Assembly: GCF_002282565.1 (NCBI RefSeq)
Contig: NZ_NCJT01000001.1
Location: 1-52,465 of the forward strand
Direction of reading: 5' to 3'
Source of the DNA: Hyphomonas sp. 34-62-18
GTDB lineage: Bacteria; Pseudomonadota; Alphaproteobacteria; Caulobacterales; Hyphomonadaceae
Length of the DNA stretch: 52,465 nucleotides
In this document: piece after piece, positions 9,071 to 21,435 of the stretch
Position numbering within the stretch: position 1 is the stretch's first letter
Layout: the number at the start of each line of letters is the position of its first letter
Notes under the pieces: model-generated
The model's database searches: none
Told to the model about the DNA's origin: nothing
What the model saw: the letters and a program-made list of their open reading frames with translations, nothing else
Translations under genes and position numbers: made by a program

Positions 9071-9279
9071 AGGATTGCAGAGCGATGCAGTCGGCGGCAA
9101 GGATTTGCAAGGCACAGGCAGGCGGACCCGGCAGGGCAAGATTAAAGCTGCGGCACCACGCTTCGCGTAGTGCCTTGTCTGCACATCTTTTTTCGAGCGC
9201 CCTTTGCACAGCTATGTGGCGCTCGCGATTCCGCGAATGCCTTGAAATCAAACGCAATCACCTGGCGCCAGCATCATGA
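9067..9279 (+). CDS. Possible small basic protein ahead of the relaxase
   Basis: 70 residues from a TTG at 9067 that overlaps the previous stop; an ATG at 9085 is an alternative. Its own stop overlaps the relaxase start by 4 bp. It is Arg/Ala/Cys-rich (MQSAARICKAQAGGPG) with no known domain, and codon preference is weaker than in neighbours. The chain of overlaps on both sides is the main argument for it. It may instead be leader sequence of the relaxase gene. Confidence 0.3.
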   Translation: MKDCRAMQSAARICKAQAGGPGRARLKLRHHASRSALSAHLFSSALCTAMWRSRFRECLEIKRNHLAPAS

Positions 9280-11189
9280 GCGACGATGATGACGTCACAC
9301 CGCACCTTGGCCGCATCGGCGACAAGGGAAAAGCGGGCGGCCGGCGCGCGAGCACGCAGCTTAGACGCGCTGTGGCGCGTCAGGGAAGAGGCGGAAAGGC
9401 ATCGGCCTTCACCGGCGCGCGCTATGGCAAGGGCGGAGCGGCGACGACAAAAGCCAGAGCGACCCATCATCTTCAGCGTCACCGGATGCGCCGTGTCATT
9501 GTGAAGGTCCATATCGCAAAGCCCGGCAAATCGGGCGTCCGAGTCTTCGGTGAACATCTGCGCTACATCCAGCGCGACGGCGTTGATCGCAACGGCAAAG
9601 GCGGGGAGATGTACGACCGGGACAGCGAGGGGATCAGCCGCCAGGACATTCTCGAACGCAGCGAGAATGATCCGCATCAGTTCCGCCTTATCGTGTCGGC
9701 CGAGGACGGCATGGCGCTGGGCGACCTGAAGCCGATGGTGCGCGAGCTGATGGAGCAGATGGAACGCGATCTTGGGCGGCGGCTCGATTGGGTGGCCGTG
9801 GACCACTACAACACCGGCCATCCGCACACGCATATCGTCATTCGCGGGCGCGACCTGCGGATGAAGGATGTCGTCATCGCAAAGGACTATCTGACGCGGG
9901 GCATCCGGGAGGCGGCGGAGGATATTGTCACTGCGCGCCTTGGCCCGCGCCGCGATCTCGAAATCATGGCGTCCCGCCAGCGCGAAGTAGATCAGGACCG
10001 CATGACCGCCATCGACCGGGCGCTTGAGCGGAGCGCGGTCGATGGCGTGGTGCGCATAGATCCCGCCCGGTCGGAGGTCGCCCGGTTTGAACGCCATCTG
10101 AAGCTCGCGCGGCTCCGGCATCTGGAGCTGCTGCACCTTGCCCGGAAAACCGGCCCCGACACCTGGACCATGCGCGCCGGCTGGACGGAAAGCTTGAAGG
10201 CGATGGCGCGGCGCGGCGACATCGTGCGCTCGATCGCCCACATACGGGGCAGGGAAGCGGAAAATGTTCTGCTCGCGGAGTCGCTGGCGCCCGGCGCACC
10301 GCCGATCACAGGCACCGTTGCGAATTACGGACCCGAGGACGAGCTGCGCGATACGCGCTTCCTGCTGGTGGAGGATTTTGACGGCCGGATATGGCATGTG
10401 CCGTCCGCAGCGGTGGACCCGGCGAATGCACCTCGAATGGGCGCTGTAGTCGAGGTGCGCAAGGGCGAGGCAACGCCGAAGCGTTCCGATCGGACGATTG
10501 CCGGAATCGCGGAGCGCACCGGCGGCGTGTGGTCCGAAGCCATGCACGCCGAAATCGATCCGGGCTCGACGGCGGAATACAGGCTCGCGCACAAACGCCG
10601 CCTCGAAGCGTTGCGCCGCGTGGGTATCGTGGAGCGGCTGCGGGATGGCACCTGGCAGGTGCCGGAAAACTATCTCGAACAGGTCATCGCCCACGAAGCG
10701 CAGCGCGGCGGCGGGCTGAGGGTGAAAACGCTCTCATGGATGCCGCTGGATCAGCAGCAGGTGGCGCACGCGGACACTTGGCTCGACGGCACCCAGGCGG
10801 CGGGCGACAGGCTGACGGGCATGCGCGCGGCGCGCACGGCATTTCTGCGGGCGGAGGGGGTGATCGCTCAGGAAGAAAAAGTGCTCACCGATGCGCAGCG
10901 CGCGGCACTCCGGCAAAAGGAGTTGCAGCGCGCTCTCAACGCCCATATGGCGCGGACGGGGAGGGCGGTCGCTCAGCTCGAAATGGGTGAGCGGTTTGAG
11001 GGCAAACTCGAAGGGATTCTTGATCTGGCCCAGGGCCGCATGGCGATTGTCGGCAATGAGAGAGCCTTCGCCTTGGTGCCCTGGCGCGACAATCTCGGAC
11101 GGCAGATCGGGCGCGAGATGGCGATCGAGCGGACCACGCGAGGGATTGGCTGGACGATCGGAAGAACGCACGCACGCGGAATAAATTGA
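9276..11189 (+). CDS. VirD2-type relaxase with C-terminal DUF3363
   Basis: 637 residues. The N-terminus is Arg/Gly-rich and basic. The relaxase core runs about 70-200: FGEHLRYIQRDGVDRNGKGG (conserved patch with a putative catalytic Tyr), HQFRLIVSAEDG, and the metal-binding histidine motif DHYNTGHPHTHIVIRG. The long C-terminal part matches the DUF3363 architecture of alphaproteobacterial island relaxases (ARKTGPDTWTMRAGW, GRIWHVPSAA, VKTLSWMPLDQQQVAHADTW). It should nick one strand at oriT, stay covalently bound and be passed to TraG. The order TraF-relaxase-TraG-CopG is the usual one, interrupted here by the STAND cargo. Confidence 0.9.
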   Translation: MSDDDDVTPHLGRIGDKGKAGGRRASTQLRRAVARQGRGGKASAFTGARYGKGGAATTKARATHHLQRHRMRRVIVKVHIAKPGKSGVRVFGEHLRYIQRDGVDRNGKGGEMYDRDSEGISRQDILERSENDPHQFRLIVSAEDGMALGDLKPMVRELMEQMERDLGRRLDWVAVDHYNTGHPHTHIVIRGRDLRMKDVVIAKDYLTRGIREAAEDIVTARLGPRRDLEIMASRQREVDQDRMTAIDRALERSAVDGVVRIDPARSEVARFERHLKLARLRHLELLHLARKTGPDTWTMRAGWTESLKAMARRGDIVRSIAHIRGREAENVLLAESLAPGAPPITGTVANYGPEDELRDTRFLLVEDFDGRIWHVPSAAVDPANAPRMGAVVEVRKGEATPKRSDRTIAGIAERTGGVWSEAMHAEIDPGSTAEYRLAHKRRLEALRRVGIVERLRDGTWQVPENYLEQVIAHEAQRGGGLRVKTLSWMPLDQQQVAHADTWLDGTQAAGDRLTGMRAARTAFLRAEGVIAQEEKVLTDAQRAALRQKELQRALNAHMARTGRAVAQLEMGERFEGKLEGILDLAQGRMAIVGNERAFALVPWRDNLGRQIGREMAIERTTRGIGWTIGRTHARGIN

Positions 11190-11506
11190 TATGCGGCTCT
11201 ATCGGAAGCGCCTTGGCTTCAGCGACCGTACGATAACATCGGGCAGCCGAGTGGCGCTGCACGATAGCATTGTGCGGTCCAAGTGAATCTGCCGCAGGCC
11301 TACTATTTCCGGCATAATCGGGAAGGGGCAAAGCCACTGCTCAATAATTGTCCCTCGGGCGGCGATTGGCCCTGAAATGTCGGTCGCGAGTTTGGTTTGA
11401 ACGGCAGGATTGAGCGCACTTCAGGCCGCTGCGCTACGCGTCCGTGCTTCCCGTCACCGGCAGCCTGTGCTTATCTGCACGTAGCGTCCGCGGGGGGGGG
11501 GAGCGT
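11190..11506. other. Relaxase-STAND spacer
   Basis: This 317-bp gap holds only a possible 31-codon ORF starting 2 nt after the relaxase stop (11191-11286, MRLYRKRLGFSDRT), which may be leftover coding sequence. It ends in the G10 tract before the STAND gene. No promoter could be placed. It may mark the left junction of the inserted cargo. Confidence 0.4.
11492..11501 (+). repeat. Run of ten G within the ribosome-binding region
   Basis: Ten consecutive G (11492-11501) are followed by AGCGT and then the ATG at 11507. The tract supplies the Shine-Dalgarno sequence, so slippage would change the spacing between ribosome site and start. Confidence 0.8.
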
Positions 11507-14254
11507 ATGGGCGTTCTATTCATCAGCCATTCGAGCCAGGACAATGATCAGGCGATCAAGGTCCGTGATTGGCTCAGATCGAACGGGTGGGGCGAGGTGT
11601 TTCTTGACCTAGACCCAGCCCATGGACTTGCGCCAGGTCAGCGGTGGCAAGAAGAACTGAAACGCGCCGGCGAGAATTGCGCTGCCGTTGTCGTGCTGGT
11701 TTCTCCGAATTGGGTGGCGTCGCGCTGGTGCCAGACCGAGTTTCTAGTCGCCGATCAGCTCAGCAAGCGCATCTTCCCCGTCTTGATCGCGCCGACCTCG
11801 TTCGACGATCTGCCGTTTGAGCTGAAGGCCAAATTCCAGCTTGCCGACATTTCGATGCCGGAAAAGGAAACCGAAGGTTTTCAATCGCTGGCGATCGGCC
11901 TCAAACGCGCCGGGCTTGATCCCAAGAGCTTCGATTGGCCACCGCCGAACGAACCCAACCGATCCGTCTATCGCGGCCTGCAAGCGCTCGACGTGCAGGA
12001 TTCCGCGATCTTCTTCGGCCGTGACGCGCATATTACGCGCGGCCTCGACGAATTGCGCCGGCTGCGCGACGGCGCGCCGCAACGAATTCTGGTCATCCTC
12101 GGCGCCTCAGGCGCGGGAAAGTCGTCGTTTCTGCGCGCAGGTCTCATCGCGCGCTTGAAACGCGATGAAGAAAACTTTTTAGTGCTGCCCATCGCGCGAC
12201 CAGAGCGGGCGGCGCTGAGCGGCGCTCAAGGCTTGAACGCGAGTGTGTCGGCGGCGCTGGGGCGTAGCACAACACTGAACGGCGCGGCTGATTTGGCCCA
12301 AGCCTTAGCTGATCTGCGCAAGCCCGTGATGGAACGGCTGACGCGCAATGCCGAAGCGGCGCGGGAAACCTATGCCGCCAAGCCGCCGACCATCATTCTT
12401 CCGATAGATCAGGCGGAGGAATTGTTCGACGCGGAGAACACTGAGCGCGCTACGTTCCGCGACATGGTCGCCGGTGCTATCGCCCAAGACGGCAATGCGC
12501 TGATCGTCGCGACCATCCGTACCGACTCCTATGAGGGCCTGCAGAAAGGCTGGCTCCCCGACAGCCAGGCGATTTTGACCTTGCCGCCCATTTCTGCGGG
12601 CTCATTCCAGCAGATCATCGAAGCTCCGGCCCGCTTGGCGACGCCGCCGCTTACAATTGAGCCCGCGCTGACGCAGCAATTGCTGGCTGATCTCTCCGCC
12701 GCCGATGCGTTACCCTTGCTGGCGTTCACGCTGGAGCGTTTGCAGACACAAAATGGTCAGGACGGCAAGCTTTCACTCGCGGACTATCGCGACAAGGACA
12801 AGCTCAACGGTATTGAGGGTGCGATCCAATCGGCGGTGAACGCGGTGCTGGGAGCGCAACCTAGCAAGGATAAACTCGCCCTGGCGCGGCGTCTGTTCGT
12901 ACCGGCGCTGGTGCAGGTGGATCAGGATGGCGTGAAACGCCGCGTGGCACGGCGCGCTGATCTCCCTGCAGACACGCACGCTCTGGCCGATCAATTCATC
13001 ACGCAGCGTCTGCTGGTCAGTGACGAAGGAAAGATCGAGGTGGCTCATGAAGCCATTCTGCGCCAGTGGCCGGCGCTGGCTGGCTGGATTGCTGAGGAGC
13101 GCAGCGCACTGGTGACGCTCGACGGGGTGCGCGCCGCGGCGCGTGACTGGAGAGCGCGTTGCTACGAAGCGGAATACTCTGAGAAAAAATCGCGCCAAAG
13201 GCCTGACGAGGGGAGTTGGCTTCTGCATCGCAGCGAGCGGCTCAAGGATGCCCAAAAGATTGCAGCGCGCAGCGATTTCGCGGTAGCGGTCGATGACGAC
13301 ATCCGCGCTTATCTCACCGCCTGCCGCCGGGCTGAGCGGCGCGCAGCTGCCGGCCGGCTGCGCATGCAGGTGCTGGCGGGCATCTTGGCGCTGATGGTGT
13401 TGGGGGTCGGTTACGCCTACACGCAGCGCGACACTCTAGAGCCGTTGTGGGCCAGTTGGACCAAATACCGGCCGTATGTCGTACCCAGTGGCACGCTACT
13501 CTCAGCAACTCCCGGAACGACGTTCCAGGATTGCCAGCGCGGTTCAGCTGGCTGCCCCGTTATGGTGGTCATCCCAAGGGGAGTATTCCTCATGGGTTCG
13601 GAGCAGGGCGACAGAGATGCCCGACCAGATGAGATGCCGCTGCATTCCGTGGAGGTCGCGAGTTTTGCGGTCTCGGAACGAGAGATTACAGTAGACGAGT
13701 GGCGTAGCTGTGTTAGCGCAGGCGCTTGTGCGACGAATTCGACCCTTCAAAGCGACGGCCGTGCCCCTGTTTCGCTCGTGTCATGGGAAGATGCGCGCGA
13801 CTACGCAGATTGGCTCTCGCAGATGACCGGTGAGAGCTACCGACTCTTGAACGAACCCGAATGGGAATATGTCGCACGCGCCAGTCCCGAGCACGACGTG
13901 CGCACACGATTTAGTTGGGGCGACGACGATCCATCGTGCGACTTTCGGGCGGCGAATGGTGCTTCGTTTGCAGGATGCGAACTGGAAGGCCCCCTCCCTA
14001 CTGGCTCATTTCGTTCAAACGCCTTCGGTGTTTACGATATGCACGGCAACGTTTTTGAGTGGACACAAGATTGCTTCCGAAATTACGCCACACAACTGGC
14101 GGATGCTGAAAATCCATGCGAGCGCGTTGTCCGCGGCGGCGCCTGGGACTTTCAAGCTCGTGACCTTCGAGCGGCGTTCCGGTACGGTTTCGACCAGAGA
14201 GTGAGAATGAGGATTATCGGCCTGAGAGTGGCGCGGTCGCTCCACCCCGACTAG
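11507..14254 (+). CDS. TIR-STAND NTPase with transmembrane segment and FGE-sulfatase-type domain (putative anti-phage protein)
   Basis: 915 residues. An N-terminal TIR domain (about 1-130) begins MGVLFISHSSQDND and has the putative catalytic Glu78 in SRWCQTEF. A STAND (nSTAND1-like) module follows: FFGRDAHITRGLDELRRL, the P-loop GASGAGKSS (about 199-207), IILPIDQAEELFD (about 296-308) and VAHEAILRQWPALAGWI. After a membrane span (about 621-639) comes an FGE/SUMF1-type domain (about 684-911) with VVIPRGVFLMGSE, LLNEPEWEYVARA, FGVYDMHGNVFEWTQD and VRGGAWDFQ. TIR domains in bacterial defence consume NAD+; STAND proteins switch on ligand sensing. The periplasmic or membrane FGE-like domain may be the sensor (inference). 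It is convergent with the next gene, sharing a CTAG stop. Confidence 0.85.
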   Translation: MGVLFISHSSQDNDQAIKVRDWLRSNGWGEVFLDLDPAHGLAPGQRWQEELKRAGENCAAVVVLVSPNWVASRWCQTEFLVADQLSKRIFPVLIAPTSFDDLPFELKAKFQLADISMPEKETEGFQSLAIGLKRAGLDPKSFDWPPPNEPNRSVYRGLQALDVQDSAIFFGRDAHITRGLDELRRLRDGAPQRILVILGASGAGKSSFLRAGLIARLKRDEENFLVLPIARPERAALSGAQGLNASVSAALGRSTTLNGAADLAQALADLRKPVMERLTRNAEAARETYAAKPPTIILPIDQAEELFDAENTERATFRDMVAGAIAQDGNALIVATIRTDSYEGLQKGWLPDSQAILTLPPISAGSFQQIIEAPARLATPPLTIEPALTQQLLADLSAADALPLLAFTLERLQTQNGQDGKLSLADYRDKDKLNGIEGAIQSAVNAVLGAQPSKDKLALARRLFVPALVQVDQDGVKRRVARRADLPADTHALADQFITQRLLVSDEGKIEVAHEAILRQWPALAGWIAEERSALVTLDGVRAAARDWRARCYEAEYSEKKSRQRPDEGSWLLHRSERLKDAQKIAARSDFAVAVDDDIRAYLTACRRAERRAAAGRLRMQVLAGILALMVLGVGYAYTQRDTLEPLWASWTKYRPYVVPSGTLLSATPGTTFQDCQRGSAGCPVMVVIPRGVFLMGSEQGDRDARPDEMPLHSVEVASFAVSEREITVDEWRSCVSAGACATNSTLQSDGRAPVSLVSWEDARDYADWLSQMTGESYRLLNEPEWEYVARASPEHDVRTRFSWGDDDPSCDFRAANGASFAGCELEGPLPTGSFRSNAFGVYDMHGNVFEWTQDCFRNYATQLADAENPCERVVRGGAWDFQARDLRAAFRYGFDQRVRMRIIGLRVARSLHPD

Positions 14255-15003
14255 GGCATGAGAATCATGCAGGCTCGGATATCTAGGTTTGCAAAGCCTC
14301 GCTCAAAGCTAAGATGATTTGTCTGAGCTGAACCATCCATTGAGTTGGCGCGCTCGTTGTAGGCAGCCACGGTGGCCATGAACTCACCTGGGCTGAACAC
14401 TCCAATTTCTGTAGCGTACGCGCCCCAGACACCGGTTAGGCACTCCGCTCGGTCGCGTGTGGAAGAACTGTACTCCATAGGAGCGTGCGCGACGTCTGCG
14501 AAGGCGAGAGACCCTGATTGGTTCAATACATGAAACGCCGTGGCGCGTACCATCAGCAAAGCTGGCACAGCATCTGTGTCTGCAAGAGTGCCGCGCCATG
14601 CTTCCATCAACGCTGTCGGATCAACATAGATTTGTTGATCTGTTGCACAATACGTTGGTTCGGTGGGGCGGATAATGACCCCGCACCCTGTTGAGACGCC
14701 CCCGTCGAATGCGACTGTTAGCGGCGGCGCGTAGTCACCGCTAACTGATTGTCTGACAGCCGCCTTCCAATGGTCTTCTGTTAGTCCAAGAACTGCCTGA
14801 AGGACGTGCGTCTGCACGGTGCGCCGTGTCTCCAGAGAACGTTTGCGCTCGGCCAAGAGATCATTCGAATACGCTTGAGGGAACCTGATTGAAGATGAGG
14901 ATGCCAGGATGCCCCGATGATGCGCAAGGAACGTGACGCCAGTCGCCAACGCGATGGCGAAAGCACCGAGCATCAATGCCGCTCTCAATGCGCGACCAGA
15001 CAT
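14251..15003 (-). CDS. YpfJ-like (putative neutral zinc metallopeptidase family) protein lacking HExxH
   Basis: 250 residues, starting at the ATG at 15003 behind GGGAGG. An N-terminal membrane segment (about 8-27) anchors it. The rest follows the YpfJ/PF04228 pattern: VAFDGGVSTGCGVI, TYCATDQQIYVDP, then RAECLTGVWGAYA in place of the usual ADCLAGVW, and a C-terminal LSFERGFANLD. Where the family has the zinc-binding HExGH helix this protein reads VRATAFHVLNQ (about 152-162), so it is predicted to be catalytically dead. It faces the TIR-STAND gene tail to tail with overlapping stop codons (CTAG, 14251-14254), suggesting co-inheritance. It may bind a ligand or partner instead of cutting protein. 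Confidence 0.65.
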   Translation of the reverse strand: MSGRALRAALMLGAFAIALATGVTFLAHHRGILASSSSIRFPQAYSNDLLAERKRSLETRRTVQTHVLQAVLGLTEDHWKAAVRQSVSGDYAPPLTVAFDGGVSTGCGVIIRPTEPTYCATDQQIYVDPTALMEAWRGTLADTDAVPALLMVRATAFHVLNQSGSLAFADVAHAPMEYSSSTRDRAECLTGVWGAYATEIGVFSPGEFMATVAAYNERANSMDGSAQTNHLSFERGFANLDIRACMILMP

Positions 15004-15144: not shown

Positions 15145-15245
15145 GCAACGTCTGTTTTCGAGTGCCGCGTGACTTTGCACTGCGTTGCTGTTTTTTGCAG
15201 GACTTCCAACTAGCCTTGATTTGTCCGTACCCCGATCCTGCCCGC
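15145..15245 (+). other. oriT: Candidate origin of transfer upstream of traG
   Basis: GATCCTGCCCG at about 15233-15243 matches the RP4 nic core ATCCTG/CCCG except for the base before A. About 45 bp upstream is a nested inverted repeat: GCAACG (15145-15150) with CGTTGC (15183-15188), enclosing AGTGC (15161-15165) with GCACT (15177-15181). Placement next to the coupling-protein gene and after the relaxase gene fits, but an 11-base match is weak evidence alone. Confidence 0.3.
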
Positions 15246-15274
15246 TGCTCTTTACCTTGCCCGCAGGACTATCG

Positions 15275-17242
15275 ATGACCGGCACGCGCATTCTCATCGG
15301 TCAGATACTGATCGTCTTGGCCATCGTCTTCTTTGCGCACTGGCTCGCAACGCAGATAACGGCGCAGGCCCTCGGCAATCAGCCTGCGCTCGGAGCGCCC
15401 TGGTTCGTGGTGGGCGAGCGGCCGGTCTACAAGCCGTGGCGGTTATATCAGTGGTGGTATGCGTACGACGCTTACGCGCCCGATGTGTTTGCGCGCGGCG
15501 GCGCAATCACGCTCGGTGGATCTGTCCTGGGTATCATCGCGGCTGTCATCGGCTCCCTTCTTCGCAGCCGGCATGAGCGAAACGTCACGACCTACGGTTC
15601 CGCGCGCTGGGCCAAATACCGCGACCTGAAACATGGCCGCCTGATCGGCAATGACGGCGTGTTCGTCGGTCGCTGGAAGAACCACTATCTGCGCCATGCA
15701 GGGCCGGAGCATGTAATGGCATTCGCGCCGACGAGAAGCGGCAAAGGCGTTGGACTGGTGGTGCCGACGCTACTCTCATGGACGGATAGCGTACTGGTCC
15801 ACGACATCAAGGGTGAAAACTGGTCGATCACCTCCGGCTGGCGCTCGACCTTTTCGACCTGCATCCGGTTCGATCCGACCGACCGCCGCTCCCCGCGTTA
15901 CAATCCGCTGATGGCGGTGCGCAAGGGCGAGCATGAGGTGAGGGACGTTCAGAATATCGCGGACATCCTTGTCGATCCCGAAGGTTCGTTGGAGCGTAGG
16001 AGCCATTGGGAAAAGACAGGGCACGCCCTTCTTGTTGGTGTCATCCTGCATGTGCTCTACGCGGAGCAGGATAAGACACTATCAGGGTGCGCAACCTTCC
16101 TCTCCGATCCAAAGCGGCCATTTTCGGCAACGCTTCGGGCGATGATGCAGACACGGCACCTCGGGGCAGAGGGCGTTCATCCCGTCGTGGCGCAGTCGGC
16201 GCGGGAGCTGATGAACAAGAGCGAGAACGAACGCAGCGGCGTCCTCTCGACGGCGATGAGTTTTCTGGCGCTCTACAGAGATCCCGTCATCGCGGAAGTC
16301 ACCAGCCGCTCGGATTGGCGGATTGAAGATCTTGTGGAAGCTGAACGGCCAGTGTCGCTCTTTCTGGTCGTGCCCCCGTCAGACCTGTCCAGGACCAAAT
16401 CCCTGATGCGTCTCATACTCAATCAGGTCGGTCGGCGGCTCACCGAGGAATTGCCGCAAGCCTCCGGTCGGAAGCGCCGGCAGCTTCTCCTGATGCTCGA
16501 TGAGTTTCCGGCGTTGGGCAGGCTCGATTTTTTTGAGTCCGCGCTGGCCTTCATGGCGGGCTATGGCCTCAGAAGCTATCTGATCACGCAATCGCTGAAC
16601 CAGATTGAAAAAGCCTACGGCCCGAACAACTCCATTCTGGACAATTGCCACATCAGGATTGCCTTCGCCACGAATGATGAGAGGACCGCCCGGAGGATTT
16701 CCGATGCGATCGGCACAACAACCGAACTGCGCTCCCAACGAAACTTCACCGGGCACCGGCTGGCGCCATGGCTTTCCCACGTCATGGTGTCGCGTCAGGA
16801 AACCCAGCGGCCACTGATCACGACAGGGGAGGTGATGCAGCTCTCGCCGCACGATGAGATCGTCCTCGCCTCCGGCACGCCCCCGGTGCGCGCCAAAAAG
16901 CTCCGCTACTATAAGGACAGGAATTTCACGAGCCGGGTGCTTCCGGAAACATCCGTCGCGTTGGCAAGCCCTCTCGGAGCGCCGAGCACCTGGAAGGGTG
17001 TTATTGCACCGCCGGTCGCGCCGCGTGCGCGCGCCGGCGCAAGCGTTGAAGGTCCGGAGGTTCAGCTTGTGCTTCAGCCCGAACTGGACCTTGAACCGAC
17101 GCAAGCGGATGAAACGCCCGCTTCAGTCGTGGAGCCCGAACACGATGAGTCCGCCGATCCGGCCGGCGACAAGCATCTCGACACCATCCGCCGCGCTGTC
17201 GGGCTCGACCGCGCTGATCCCGATTTCCTGCCTGACTTCTGA
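15275..17242 (+). CDS. traG: TraG/VirD4 family coupling protein
   Basis: 655 residues; AGGA precedes the ATG at 15275 (an in-frame ATG at 15185 would add 30 unlikely residues). Two N-terminal membrane segments (about 8-27 and 78-96) precede the ATPase. Walker A is APTRSGKGVG (about 151-160) and Walker B is LLLMLDEFPALGRL. EHVMAFAPTR and SYLITQSLNQIEKAYG are typical of the family. The C-terminus is an acidic, Pro-rich tail (LDLEPTQADETPAS). The hexameric inner-membrane ATPase links the relaxase-DNA complex to a type IV secretion channel. No channel genes follow. Confidence 0.92.
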   Translation: MTGTRILIGQILIVLAIVFFAHWLATQITAQALGNQPALGAPWFVVGERPVYKPWRLYQWWYAYDAYAPDVFARGGAITLGGSVLGIIAAVIGSLLRSRHERNVTTYGSARWAKYRDLKHGRLIGNDGVFVGRWKNHYLRHAGPEHVMAFAPTRSGKGVGLVVPTLLSWTDSVLVHDIKGENWSITSGWRSTFSTCIRFDPTDRRSPRYNPLMAVRKGEHEVRDVQNIADILVDPEGSLERRSHWEKTGHALLVGVILHVLYAEQDKTLSGCATFLSDPKRPFSATLRAMMQTRHLGAEGVHPVVAQSARELMNKSENERSGVLSTAMSFLALYRDPVIAEVTSRSDWRIEDLVEAERPVSLFLVVPPSDLSRTKSLMRLILNQVGRRLTEELPQASGRKRRQLLLMLDEFPALGRLDFFESALAFMAGYGLRSYLITQSLNQIEKAYGPNNSILDNCHIRIAFATNDERTARRISDAIGTTTELRSQRNFTGHRLAPWLSHVMVSRQETQRPLITTGEVMQLSPHDEIVLASGTPPVRAKKLRYYKDRNFTSRVLPETSVALASPLGAPSTWKGVIAPPVAPRARAGASVEGPEVQLVLQPELDLEPTQADETPASVVEPEHDESADPAGDKHLDTIRRAVGLDRADPDFLPDF

Positions 17243-17819: not shown

Positions 17820-18929
17820 ATGGCTGCGGGCAAACGAAACGATCCAAACAGGAATATCGCCAGCCTTCTGTCAGATGCGCATCTGGAGACGGTGCGTGGG
17901 GGTATGCTTAGCGCGGTTAGGGCCTTCGAGAGGATGGATTTGAGAAGTCACCTCCTTAGTCAGCTTGAGCTGATCAATCGGCCGGGGCAGCTGGACCAAA
18001 TGCGGAGCCTCGCGCAACGCTTCGCAGACCTAGACGCAGCACAGCATATGAATCCGCGATGGGTCGATTCCCTTCGGGAGATGGCGAAAGCCATGGAGCG
18101 CGATAATCAGGCGTTGGCCAATCGGTTCGCGACCATTAACGCTGCCATCGATGCGAGCATGCCCGCCACATTCCGACTGCTAGAAAAGCATACTGCCCTT
18201 CAGGCCGCATTGAATTCATCAGAATGGCAAAAGCAGCTCTCTCAGTTTGCCGAAGCGGTCGGACCGCAACTCTCTGCATTCCAAACTGCGATGGAACGCT
18301 TAGCGCTGATCGACTTGGCGACGCTGCGTGCGAACTCAGAAGATTCGCGAGAGGCCGCCGCACGGGCTGCTCATGCACAGGCGGTTGAAGCTCAGAACTT
18401 GGTCGAAGCGCTAATCGAGGCGCCATCGCCCGAAGAGGGCGCGCAATTGCTCACGTTGCTGCTGCCCTTGTTGGTGAACCTCCTGAAGAACACCACCGTA
18501 GAACTTCGGTCTTTGGGGCTAGTGGGACTCCTCACCGTATTAATAGCGCTAAACTCATTGTTGCCCGACACTGCCATTCAGGAGCTGTCAGAGGAGCAAC
18601 GCGCGGGCTTCATGGAAATGCGCGAACAGATTGATGTTCTGACCGCGCATGTCGTGGAGCTGAAGGGCACCGATGAGGAGCTAACTCAAGCGCATCTGGA
18701 AGGACTGGAGCGCGGCGAATTGCAACGCACCGCCAACATTCGCCGATCGCCCACAGGCGACGCCGAGCTGATATTGAAGGGCATGGAAGGCATGCCATTC
18801 GCTATCGTCGAGCGGCAAGGGAGGTGGACGCTCATCATCGTCCGTGATCCGCTGACGGATCGCCTCCTACAAGGCTGGGTCTACGGCAATGCGGTTCATC
18901 TAACTCGCTGGCCACAAGAAGCAGATTAG
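17820..18929 (+). CDS. Membrane protein with long helical N-terminus and SH3-like C-terminus
   Basis: 369 residues with a strong ribosome site (GGAGGAAGGGG) before the ATG. Residues 1-200 are predicted largely helical with coiled-coil character (REMAKAMERDNQALANRF). Two hydrophobic segments follow (about 205-225 LLTLLLPLLVNLL; about 232-250 LGLVGLLTVLIALNSLL), making a hairpin in the membrane. The end (about 305-360) looks like a bacterial SH3 fold (TANIRRSPTGDAELI, GRWTLIIVRD, LQGWVYGNAVHL). The region is visibly more A/T-rich than the tra genes. No known family recognised. Only 25 nt separate it from the next open frame, so the two form a likely operon. Confidence 0.65.
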   Translation: MAAGKRNDPNRNIASLLSDAHLETVRGGMLSAVRAFERMDLRSHLLSQLELINRPGQLDQMRSLAQRFADLDAAQHMNPRWVDSLREMAKAMERDNQALANRFATINAAIDASMPATFRLLEKHTALQAALNSSEWQKQLSQFAEAVGPQLSAFQTAMERLALIDLATLRANSEDSREAAARAAHAQAVEAQNLVEALIEAPSPEEGAQLLTLLLPLLVNLLKNTTVELRSLGLVGLLTVLIALNSLLPDTAIQELSEEQRAGFMEMREQIDVLTAHVVELKGTDEELTQAHLEGLERGELQRTANIRRSPTGDAELILKGMEGMPFAIVERQGRWTLIIVRDPLTDRLLQGWVYGNAVHLTRWPQEAD

Positions 18930-19050
18930 GAAGTTTCGCCTGCTAAGGGCTCCGATGGCCGTGGAAATCGACTTGTCCGGTCGAAAAATCCGCCGGACTG
19001 TGAGCCGGGACTTGGGCGTTATGGTTACTGGCTCCACATCTCATGGAGCC

Positions 19051-20058
19051 ATGACACTCATTCTGACTCTCGTGCATCGAGACTACGTTTTGCAATCAAG
19101 CGATCGGCTTGTGTCATTGGCACAGCGTGGCGAGTTGCGGGAGGGCGACCGGCGCGCGAACAAATGCGTCATCTACCGCGCGACAGACGGCGTTCTTTCG
19201 ATTGGTTACGCGGGGTATGCCTACCTGGGCGGCATGCCTGCCGATGAGTGGATTGTTGAGACACTGCTACGAAAACCACTCGACGGTCCGCGAACGCCCG
19301 ATGGGCGGCGCTTCGGAATACAAAGTGGCGCATCGATAGCACCGCTTACAGCTCCACAGGCGGCTTGGGAAATCGAGCAAGCGATCCGCAAAGCGGTCCC
19401 ACCCGACCAGCATTTTGAAATCGTACTGGCGGGGTTTAGACAGCGGCGCAATCGCATCCTCCCGTATTGGGTGGATATCCAGAAGCGCGCGAACGACAGC
19501 GTTCGTGTGCTCAATCGGTCAAAACGCTTTCCGGAGGTAAATGGTCGTTATGCCCTGATATGGCAGGGCGGCGGAGTCACAGCGACAGAAATGGTCGAAT
19601 TGCATGAGCGGCTGCGGTCGCTCGGAAAGCAAATAGCGGAACAACACGAGAGAAATCCCAACCTGAAAGAAGTCTCAACGGTGATGGTCCAGTTCACCCG
19701 AGACATGGCAGATGTTCACGACGGGATCGGAAAAAACGTCTTGACTGTCGGACTCACGCAATGGGGGCGTGGATACTGCGAGTTCCACGGCGCGGAAAGG
19801 CACCCTCTTCGGTTGGTTGGGAACAGATCGTCGCCAATCGAAGTCGTTGATAGCGCTCAACGGCCGTGGATCGTCTCGCCTGGCTTGCTGGCAGCTCCGT
19901 CTTATGAAGTCGGAGTGTCCGACTTCAATCTTTGTGGATATGAGTTTCGTTCAATCGGTGCAGACGCGACTGGAGGTTTGTTGGGGCTCAGTTCCAGCAT
20001 TCGGCGACCAACCATAGCTGAGATGATCGGCCGGTCCACAACGACAACGCCAGATTAG
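19051..20058 (+). CDS. Proteasome-like Ntn-hydrolase fold protein (N-terminal threonine type), putative
   Basis: 335 residues from the ATG at 19051, with GGAG just upstream; the frame is open from an ATG at 18955, which would add a 32-residue propeptide-like leader. Directly after Met is Thr: MTLILTLVHRDYVLQSSDRL. Counting that Thr as 1, Asp lies at 17 in SSDRLVS and Lys at 37 in ANKCVIY. Then comes IGYAGYAYLGG. This matches the Thr1-Asp17-Lys33 and AG pattern of proteasome beta subunits and HslV. The remainder (about 100-335) has no recognised domain. Active threonine-type hydrolase is inferred, not shown. It pairs with the SH3 membrane protein upstream in the place of the trb genes. Confidence 0.6.
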   Translation: MTLILTLVHRDYVLQSSDRLVSLAQRGELREGDRRANKCVIYRATDGVLSIGYAGYAYLGGMPADEWIVETLLRKPLDGPRTPDGRRFGIQSGASIAPLTAPQAAWEIEQAIRKAVPPDQHFEIVLAGFRQRRNRILPYWVDIQKRANDSVRVLNRSKRFPEVNGRYALIWQGGGVTATEMVELHERLRSLGKQIAEQHERNPNLKEVSTVMVQFTRDMADVHDGIGKNVLTVGLTQWGRGYCEFHGAERHPLRLVGNRSSPIEVVDSAQRPWIVSPGLLAAPSYEVGVSDFNLCGYEFRSIGADATGGLLGLSSSIRRPTIAEMIGRSTTTTPD

Positions 20059-20110: not shown

Positions 20111-21385
20111 TCAGCCTGCCCCGGACCACAGACTGCTGACCGGGAGTGCAAACAGCCCGCCGCCAAATGACAGTTTTTCTGATCCCAAATAAAAGACGAG
20201 CCCTGTGAACTGCCTTGTTCGCCCCGGCCCATCCTGGCCGAACCAGCGCAGATGGCGGAAGTCGCTTGCATCGACGGTTGCTGCCGCCTTGACTTCAACG
20301 CCGACCAGTTTCCGTCCGCTTTCGATCAGGATATCGATCTCGCGTTTGTCCGCACTGCGCCAGTGATAGAAACGCGCGTCGGTGTCCTGCATCGGCGCCG
20401 CTCGCAGGAGTTCGTTCAGAACATAGCTTTCGAGCACAGCGCCAAAAGCCGCCGGGTCCGCCCCCAGGTCGAAGGCGTTGTCTCCAAAGCGACGCAGCGC
20501 GCACAGGACGCCGCTGTCCACGAAATGGTATTTCGGATTCTTGATTTCTCGCTTTCCTTCCCCCGAAGCCCATGCGCCAAGCTGCACGATTACCGAGAGT
20601 CTGAGCAGGATATCGATGTATTGTTCGATCGTCTCGCGACGGACTTTCACGGCGTTGGACAGCTCGGCGATATTCAGCTCATTGGCGGTACGCGCAGCCA
20701 TCTGATCGATTAGACGGCGAAGCGCATCGGTTTTCCGGATCTTTATGATGTCAGCGACGTCACGATCGACCATAGTGTCGACATTGTCCCGGTATTGTCT
20801 CTGCCGCTCTCTCAAAGGCATCTGACGGATTTCCGGGAAACCGCCTCTCAGAATCAGATCAATGACGCCCGAACGGGAAACAGGCTCGGCTTTGATGGCC
20901 GACAGTTGAGGCTCTTTTTCCGACGCCCAGCTGATCAGCCGGGAGACCGGCGCACGATGAATCTCGGCAGCCGAGAGCGGCCAGAGCGTCAGGGTGCGCA
21001 TACGTCCCGCAAGAGAATCGGCGACATTCGCTGTACGAAAGACATTCGAGGAGCCGGTCAGAACAAATTGTCCCTTGCGCCGGTCCTCATCGACAATCCG
21101 CTTGATGGCGAGCGAGAGATCGGTGGAGCGCTGTGCTTCATCGATGATCAGGGGGGTGTCACCGAGTTCCTCGCGCATTGCCTTGATTTGCCCATAGGGG
21201 TCTGCCTCGATTGCCGCGAGCGTTGCTGCATCGTCGAGACTGACAAAGCGGCCTCTGGCGAAGAGGTCGCGCACGAGCGTTGTTTTGCCCGCCTGACGGG
21301 GGCCGATCAGATTGACAACCCTTGTGTGCCCGAGTGCGGCCTCCAATTCAGGCACGAGGTGCCGGGGCAGGTAGGTATCCGGCAT
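20111..21385 (-). CDS. ATP-binding protein of the AAA_14/DUF4143 family
   Basis: 424 residues from the ATG at 21385. The P-loop NLIGPRQAGKTTLVRD is at about 25-40 and the Walker B LIIDEAQRS at about 79-87. VLTGSSNVF is the sensor-like segment and LAGRMRTLTLWPLSAAEI is diagnostic. The C-terminal half is DUF4143: YRDNVDTMVDRDVADI, then KYHFVDSGVLCALRR. Its end has an endonuclease-like core (KREIDILIESGRKLVGVEVK, a D-ExK arrangement). Such ATPases are frequent solitary genes in bacteria and of unclear role, with toxin or defence links suggested. Three 23-bp-period repeats lie just upstream. Confidence 0.85.
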   Translation of the reverse strand: MPDTYLPRHLVPELEAALGHTRVVNLIGPRQAGKTTLVRDLFARGRFVSLDDAATLAAIEADPYGQIKAMREELGDTPLIIDEAQRSTDLSLAIKRIVDEDRRKGQFVLTGSSNVFRTANVADSLAGRMRTLTLWPLSAAEIHRAPVSRLISWASEKEPQLSAIKAEPVSRSGVIDLILRGGFPEIRQMPLRERQRQYRDNVDTMVDRDVADIIKIRKTDALRRLIDQMAARTANELNIAELSNAVKVRRETIEQYIDILLRLSVIVQLGAWASGEGKREIKNPKYHFVDSGVLCALRRFGDNAFDLGADPAAFGAVLESYVLNELLRAAPMQDTDARFYHWRSADKREIDILIESGRKLVGVEVKAAATVDASDFRHLRWFGQDGPGRTRQFTGLVFYLGSEKLSFGGGLFALPVSSLWSGAG

Positions 21386-21435
21386 GAGCGGCCACTCCGA
21401 GTTATTCCGCTTCACCAAGATGCGGTTAGAGGAAT

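Follow-up and report, generated by a model that had tools for sequence, protein, structure and literature searches.

A TIR-nSTAND1 protein with a probably periplasmic FGE-type domain, carried as cargo between relaxase and TraG genes in Hyphomonas

The window analysed here is a stretch of 52,465 nucleotides from Hyphomonas sp. 34-62-18 (contig NZ_NCJT01000001.1). It carries the gene of a 915-residue protein which joins a TIR domain, an nSTAND1 nucleoside triphosphatase (NTPase), a membrane span and a domain of the formylglycine-generating enzyme (FGE) type. This gene and the gene of a YpfJ-like protein fill, alone, the slot between a relaxase gene and the gene of a TraG coupling protein; they are convergent, on the plus and the minus strand respectively, and their stop codons overlap. 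The single-protein layout, its cargo position and the overlapping stops had been proposed in an original prediction made from the DNA letters, and all of them were confirmed, the coordinates and domains with Pfam and hydropathy and both flanking genes with NCBIfam. The features of the locus are:

11507..14254, plus strand: TIR-nSTAND1-membrane span-FGE protein, 915 residues (Pfam and structure model)
11519..11890, plus strand: TIR domain, residues 5-128, with putative catalytic Glu78 (Pfam, Foldseek and alignment)
11969..13159, plus strand: nSTAND1 NTPase, residues 155-551, with P-loop at 199-207 and DQAEEL at 301-306 (Pfam and conserved residues)
13364..13420, plus strand: membrane span, residues 620-638 (hydropathy)
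13556..14236, plus strand: FGE/PvdO-like domain, residues 684-910 (Pfam and match to PvdO)
14251..14254, no strand: CTAG common to both stop codons (sequence)
14251..15003, minus strand: YpfJ-like protein without HExxH, 250 residues, with an N-terminal hydrophobic segment and four Cys (Pfam, alignment and hydropathy)
11492..11501, plus strand: ten consecutive G, separated from the ATG at 11507 by five bases
9276..11189, plus strand: RlxS-like relaxase, bounding the cargo slot on the left (best NCBIfam match RlxS at 534 bits, below the cut-off of 850)
15185..17242, plus strand: TraG/VirD4 coupling protein, bounding the cargo slot on the right (1044 bits, above the cut-off)

In the 915-residue protein, Pfam assigns residues 5-128 to TIR_2 (E 1.9e-20), 155-551 to nSTAND1 (E 7.5e-73) and 684-910 to FGE-sulfatase (PF03781, E 2.8e-45). 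Key residues of the TIR domain and the NTPase are conserved: when the window protein was aligned with 48 relatives chosen out of 80 TIR-nSTAND1 loci, Glu was found at position 78 in 44 of the 49 proteins (the others having three gaps, one Gly and one Gln), while Lys at position 205 and Asp at position 301 were each present in 48, with a gap in the remaining one. A structure model built from 14 sequences has a mean predicted local distance difference test score (pLDDT) of 71.5, with the TIR and NTPase parts mostly at 75-94 apart from some weaker stretches. Compared with the Protein Data Bank (PDB) by Foldseek, this model retrieved PvdO, FGE, the plant NLR RPP1, SPARTA TIR-APAZ chains and a Hydra TIR domain, with target TM-scores of 0.80 and 0.83 for the SPARTA TIR-APAZ chains and the Hydra TRR-2 TIR domain; the TIR fold expected in the original prediction was thus recovered. 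By sequence, no solved relative of the TIR-STAND part was found at E 0.01. The TIR part matches the ThsB models of PADLOC weakly; in Thoeris, the ThsB TIR protein works with a ThsA partner. Regarding the start of the gene, GGAG stands immediately 5' of the ATG at 11507, and an alternative in-frame GTG upstream, at 11444, would give a protein of 936 residues. The ten-G run ahead of the ATG is the sole run of eight or more G within the window; such runs can vary in length, and this one could switch translation.

The scan for relatives yielded at least 593 stretches, of which at least 552 were confirmed and 80 TIR-nSTAND1 loci were kept; 69 tails were analysed, the frames left out being those with a cut 3' side, a length under 120 residues, a minus-strand position or an early end in the profile. 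As judged from sequence matches, the tails are swapped among these relatives: WD40 matches are present in 49 of the 69 analysed tails, and an FGE tail in four of the 80 loci. The phmmer search for FGE tails used the window FGE domain as its one query, by which divergent ones can be missed, and gave matches in five loci, as tails in L114, L157, L117 (where the frame is split) and L179, and as a separate gene in L176. The relative in L111, a TIR-nSTAND1-WD40 protein with a hydrophobic stretch after the NTPase, is 55% identical to the window protein over residues 1-610 and differs from it in having WD40 repeats in the place of the FGE domain. L114, a 984-residue frame from a Xanthobacteraceae metagenome-assembled genome, has in common with the window protein all four parts of the layout (TIR, nSTAND1, a hydrophobic stretch and FGE, with eight Cys in the tail), but no YpfJ-profile match, and neither relaxase nor TraG was seen by eye nearby. 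Of note, annotation splits the TIR-STAND match over two genes in Sinorhizobium M103 and C101 (L032/L033), and places it in one gene in K101.

The strongest hydrophobic stretch of the window protein by hydropathy is 620-638, the structure model has a predicted helix at 597-635, and ACRRAERRAAAGRLR stands ahead of the 620-638 span. Among the relatives, whose topology was judged by simple hydropathy and charge, a hydrophobic stretch lies within the first 150 residues of the tail in 60 of the 69 analysed tails; because its N-side is the more positive in 52 of these 60, most relatives with such a stretch are predicted to have their C-terminus outside. Among solved structures, the FGE domain matches PvdO best by sequence (PDB 5hha, 5.3e-32) and has Cys pairs in common with it in the alignment; unlike the window domain, PvdO is a stand-alone protein, named dihydropyoverdine dehydrogenase in NCBIfam. 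Eight Cys are located at 676-871, inside the domain and just before it. In catalytic FGE, a Cys pair is located after the RGG motif; the window protein has no Cys beyond residue 871, its segment from RVVRGG onward being Cys-free, and because the pair is missing we read the domain as one that may bind rather than catalyze. Cysteine richness is common in this family, as among 30 FGE frames of other genomes 28 have 5-8 Cys in the matched stretch (the other two being partial matches), and several have a hydrophobic stretch 20-45 residues ahead of the domain. FGE matches were present in 39 of the 289 genomes of the class sample; these relatives are mostly Cys-rich and include fusions to TIR (L215) or caspase (L205, L211, L219, L222, L228). 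The fusion at L215:76-2214, on the plus strand, combines TIR and FGE in one protein with no Pfam STAND match, which makes it a shorter form of the layout. Hydropathy and charge support the extracytoplasmic placement advanced for the C-terminal domain in the original prediction: the FGE domain is probably periplasmic.

By its domains, the window protein belongs to an already described kind. In the available sections of PMC8195603, STAND-FGS fusions are presented as a counter-invader class with N-terminal TIR and nSTAND1 among its variants, FGS is proposed as the sensor, and an association with diversity-generating retroelements (DGRs) is reported as frequent. Like these systems, the window protein has a STAND NTPase of the nSTAND1 type, the FGS/FGE domain (PF03781) and an N-terminal TIR domain; it differs from them, as far as they are described in those sections, by the span ahead of the FGE domain. 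The architecture, which had been thought unfamiliar, was therefore described before, and all its four parts recur in L114. Similarly, PMC10907252 describes DGR-diversified STAND targets with CLec/FGE domains, in which nSTAND1 or NACHT is joined to a C-terminal CLec; some have TIR or peptidase N-termini, and one target is predicted there to be periplasmic. Unlike the diversified sensors of that account, the window protein comes from a genome (92.68% complete, 524 contigs) in which no DGR was found, the reverse transcriptase profile PF00078 giving 0 matches in this incomplete assembly.

The convergent neighbour matches Pfam Zn_peptidase (PF04228) with E 2.2e-12 and 47.5 bits (cut-off 23.2) over profile positions 77-240 of 290, and the NCBIfam YpfJ model with 60.9 bits, below the model cut-off of 250. 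As anticipated, it has lost the zinc site: RATAF replaces the HEVGH of YpfJ, by which both His and the Glu of HExxH are gone (a register repeated in a second alignment), and Arg stands in place of the Glu of ELQADC, likely the third zinc ligand of YpfJ, while H158, the His after the motif, is retained. HExxH is present in all 26 other YpfJ-like frames aligned with the neighbour (13 of the 26 rows being displayed), which come from 31 such frames in the 30 best loci of the order genomes. A second check for inactive YpfJ found both motifs in 12 of 14 frames; the other two, both on L195, overlap and have one motif each. The available text of PMC3269727 describes KPN_02809 (YpfJ, PF04228) as an active protease in which His171 of HEXXH matters for zinc binding; the neighbour, a homologue, differs from this protein by the loss of HEXXH. 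The site is lost, yet the frame is intact and the protein is 24-28% identical to nine YpfJ proteins, which argues for an old, retained, non-catalytic protein.

Close relatives of this neighbour were sought widely, in order, class and phylum genome samples that overlap. YpfJ-type matches occur in 113 of 299 order genomes, the best besides the neighbour scoring 61 bits versus 551 for itself; in 385 class genomes, nothing other than the neighbour itself reached E 1e-16, and the one match among 398 phylum genomes, at 8.9e-18, is a canonical YpfJ with HExxH. The host genome also has a separate canonical YpfJ (326.9 bits, HExxH present). No relatives were found in phages at E 1e-5, none was confirmed in viral contigs with the neighbour as query, and alignments of YpfJ proteins as queries gave 1 and 6 YpfJ-like loci in viral contigs; among plasmids 42 records matched, every one below 60% identity. 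No solved relative was found by sequence at E 1, and a model of the neighbour (8 sequences, mean pLDDT 73.8) gave no PDB fold match at E 0.001, an uninformative outcome.

The two genes had been proposed as a pair, to be checked by their co-occurrence elsewhere. A YpfJ profile built with the window neighbour among its sequences, which as a positive control recovered 14 YpfJ frames in ten loci picked for carrying YpfJ, gave no match in the 80 TIR-nSTAND1 loci, the four FGE-tailed ones included (contig ends cut some flanks, notably those of L157 and L179), none in 29 FGE loci with flanks of about 1.5 kb and none in 40 other regions downstream of rlxS. A partnership of the YpfJ-like and TIR-STAND proteins, tested in this way by gene neighbourhood, was thus not found to recur (0/80, 0/29 and 0/40). 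Searches of the open-access literature, none of which joined YpfJ to TIR or STAND, brought no recognisable report of such a pairing. Among the loci searched, a TIR-STAND gene stands beside an inactive YpfJ relative here alone, and one instance does not amount to evidence of function; nothing but adjacency connects the two genes. Most likely, the YpfJ-like gene encodes a periplasmic protein that is cargo in its own right and has a non-catalytic role, and a functional link to the TIR-STAND protein is possible but unsupported.

The gap between rlxS and traG was compared in 40 related places (L071-L110), which are the best-matching of 79 other relaxase places, bar one at a contig end. Fifteen are empty (79-277 bp), 15 are filled (0.84-9.4 kb) and 10 have no TraG in the stretch, several of these because the contig ends there; sizes run between alignment ends, and the counts are not independent, several empty slots being near-copies (122 bp in 5 of the 15). 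The rlxS-traG gap is a recurrent cargo site. When PADLOC and Pfam were applied to ten proteins from seven of the 15 filled slots, defence-family matches were obtained in five: a short prokaryotic Argonaute (pAgo) with a SIR2-type partner in L105, a long pAgo with a helical restriction endonuclease in L107, Dsr1 in L109, HamB (Hachiman-type) in L110 and, at family level, an OLD/AriA/GajA-type protein in L106. The cargoes of L106 and L108 are near-alike, with four frames in two genomes, and include the OLD/AriA-like ATPase, for which the scan covered L106, and what by inspection is an SbcD/SbcC-like pair.

Beyond TraG, the stretch 17820-20058 holds genes of 369 and 367 residues after a CopG-like gene, possibly a second cargo; the 369-residue gene has two weak Pfam matches below cut-off and the 367-residue gene no Pfam match at 0.1. 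A DUF4143/AAA_14 ATPase gene (20111-21418, minus strand) lies between the genes of the element and trp genes, and farther right in the window are PRAI (trpF), a pyridoxal phosphate-dependent enzyme (taken as trpB), trpA and a gene resembling accD. Because the window turns to trp genes and the sole TrbE-type match of the genome is on another contig, this copy of the element may be without a transfer ATPase of its own.

Taken together, the 915-residue protein probably combines immune sensor and effector in one membrane-anchored product of a single gene, which a mobile element carries as cargo. As read from its sequence, it has TIR and nSTAND1 domains with their key residues, one span and, after the span, a Cys-rich domain of the PvdO/FGE type. 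The periplasmic FGE domain would act as a ligand-binding sensor and not as an enzyme; binding of a ligand, e.g., a phage part or envelope damage, would be relayed via the span, the NTPase would switch and oligomerise, and the TIR domains would cluster, leading to the breakdown of nicotinamide adenine dinucleotide (NAD) and to the arrest of the cell. Only the parts list is taken directly from the locus; each step of action is borrowed from what is known of other TIR and STAND proteins. Several observations weigh against this interpretation. The FGE part of the model has a pLDDT of mostly about 30-60, much of it about 30, and its fold thus rests on the sequence matches. PADLOC yields partial TIR or ATPase matches only, and the protein is therefore not a catalogued PADLOC system; no sigma-70-like promoter was found (0, with 1.2 expected by chance); and the scanned cargoes of L085 and L103 match helicase types only and are not counted as defence. 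Among the four FGE-tailed relatives, a clear span and eight Cys occur together only in L114: the tail of L157 has two Cys and a moderate hydropathy of 1.05, measured from a later start than in the tail analysis, and neither L179 (eight Cys, peak of only 0.97) nor L117 (seven Cys, only 1.13) has a strong stretch.

It is unlikely that the FGE domain is cytoplasmic and senses intracellular phage products, the hydrophobic stretch being no span or being otherwise oriented. The consulted sections of PMC8195603 propose FGS as an intracellular sensor, which also counts against a periplasmic one, and two of the four FGE-tailed relatives, L117 and L179, have no strong hydrophobic stretch; the hydrophobic peak of the window protein, its positive N-side flank and the Cys pairs common with PvdO speak for the opposite placement. 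Slightly less likely is that the genes are inert or serve another purpose than defence, such as sensing host envelope stress or protecting the mobile element itself: function is deduced here from sequence, and the layout would equally fit general programmed-death signalling, whereas the open frames, the conserved catalytic residues and the occurrence of defence-family genes in this slot among relatives favour an immune role. We consider it improbable that the YpfJ relative acts as a genuine partner in the form of a periplasmic pseudoprotease, which would bind the FGE domain, or itself be bait for a phage factor, and silence the TIR-STAND protein until displaced. In favour of this reading, the two genes alone occupy the slot with overlapping stops, both proteins carry domains likely to face the periplasm, a canonical YpfJ is kept elsewhere in the host, and the loss of HExxH with retention of the four Cys, the N-terminal hydrophobic segment and the open frame fits a retained non-catalytic protein better than recent decay. 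Nevertheless, the genes are convergent and form no operon, the YpfJ profile is absent from all TIR-nSTAND1 loci, of which some have truncated flanks, and the closest other match of the neighbour in the phylum sample is a canonical YpfJ. It is more improbable still that the two proteins form a guard-decoy pair across the inner membrane, in which the YpfJ-derived pseudoprotease would restrain the periplasmic FGE domain, and a phage or rival displacing or targeting periplasmic YpfJ-like proteins would set off TIR-driven loss of NAD.

Returning to the membrane-anchored sensor-effector, the window protein shows in compact form how a TIR-STAND protein can be built with a sensor that is probably turned towards the periplasm. 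For 52 of the 69 analysed tails of its relatives, simple measures of hydropathy and charge predict an outside-facing orientation, and the related literature examined, as far as its accessible parts go, contains no report of an orientation test for such tails. Finally, the rlxS-traG gap is a place to look for further defence genes.

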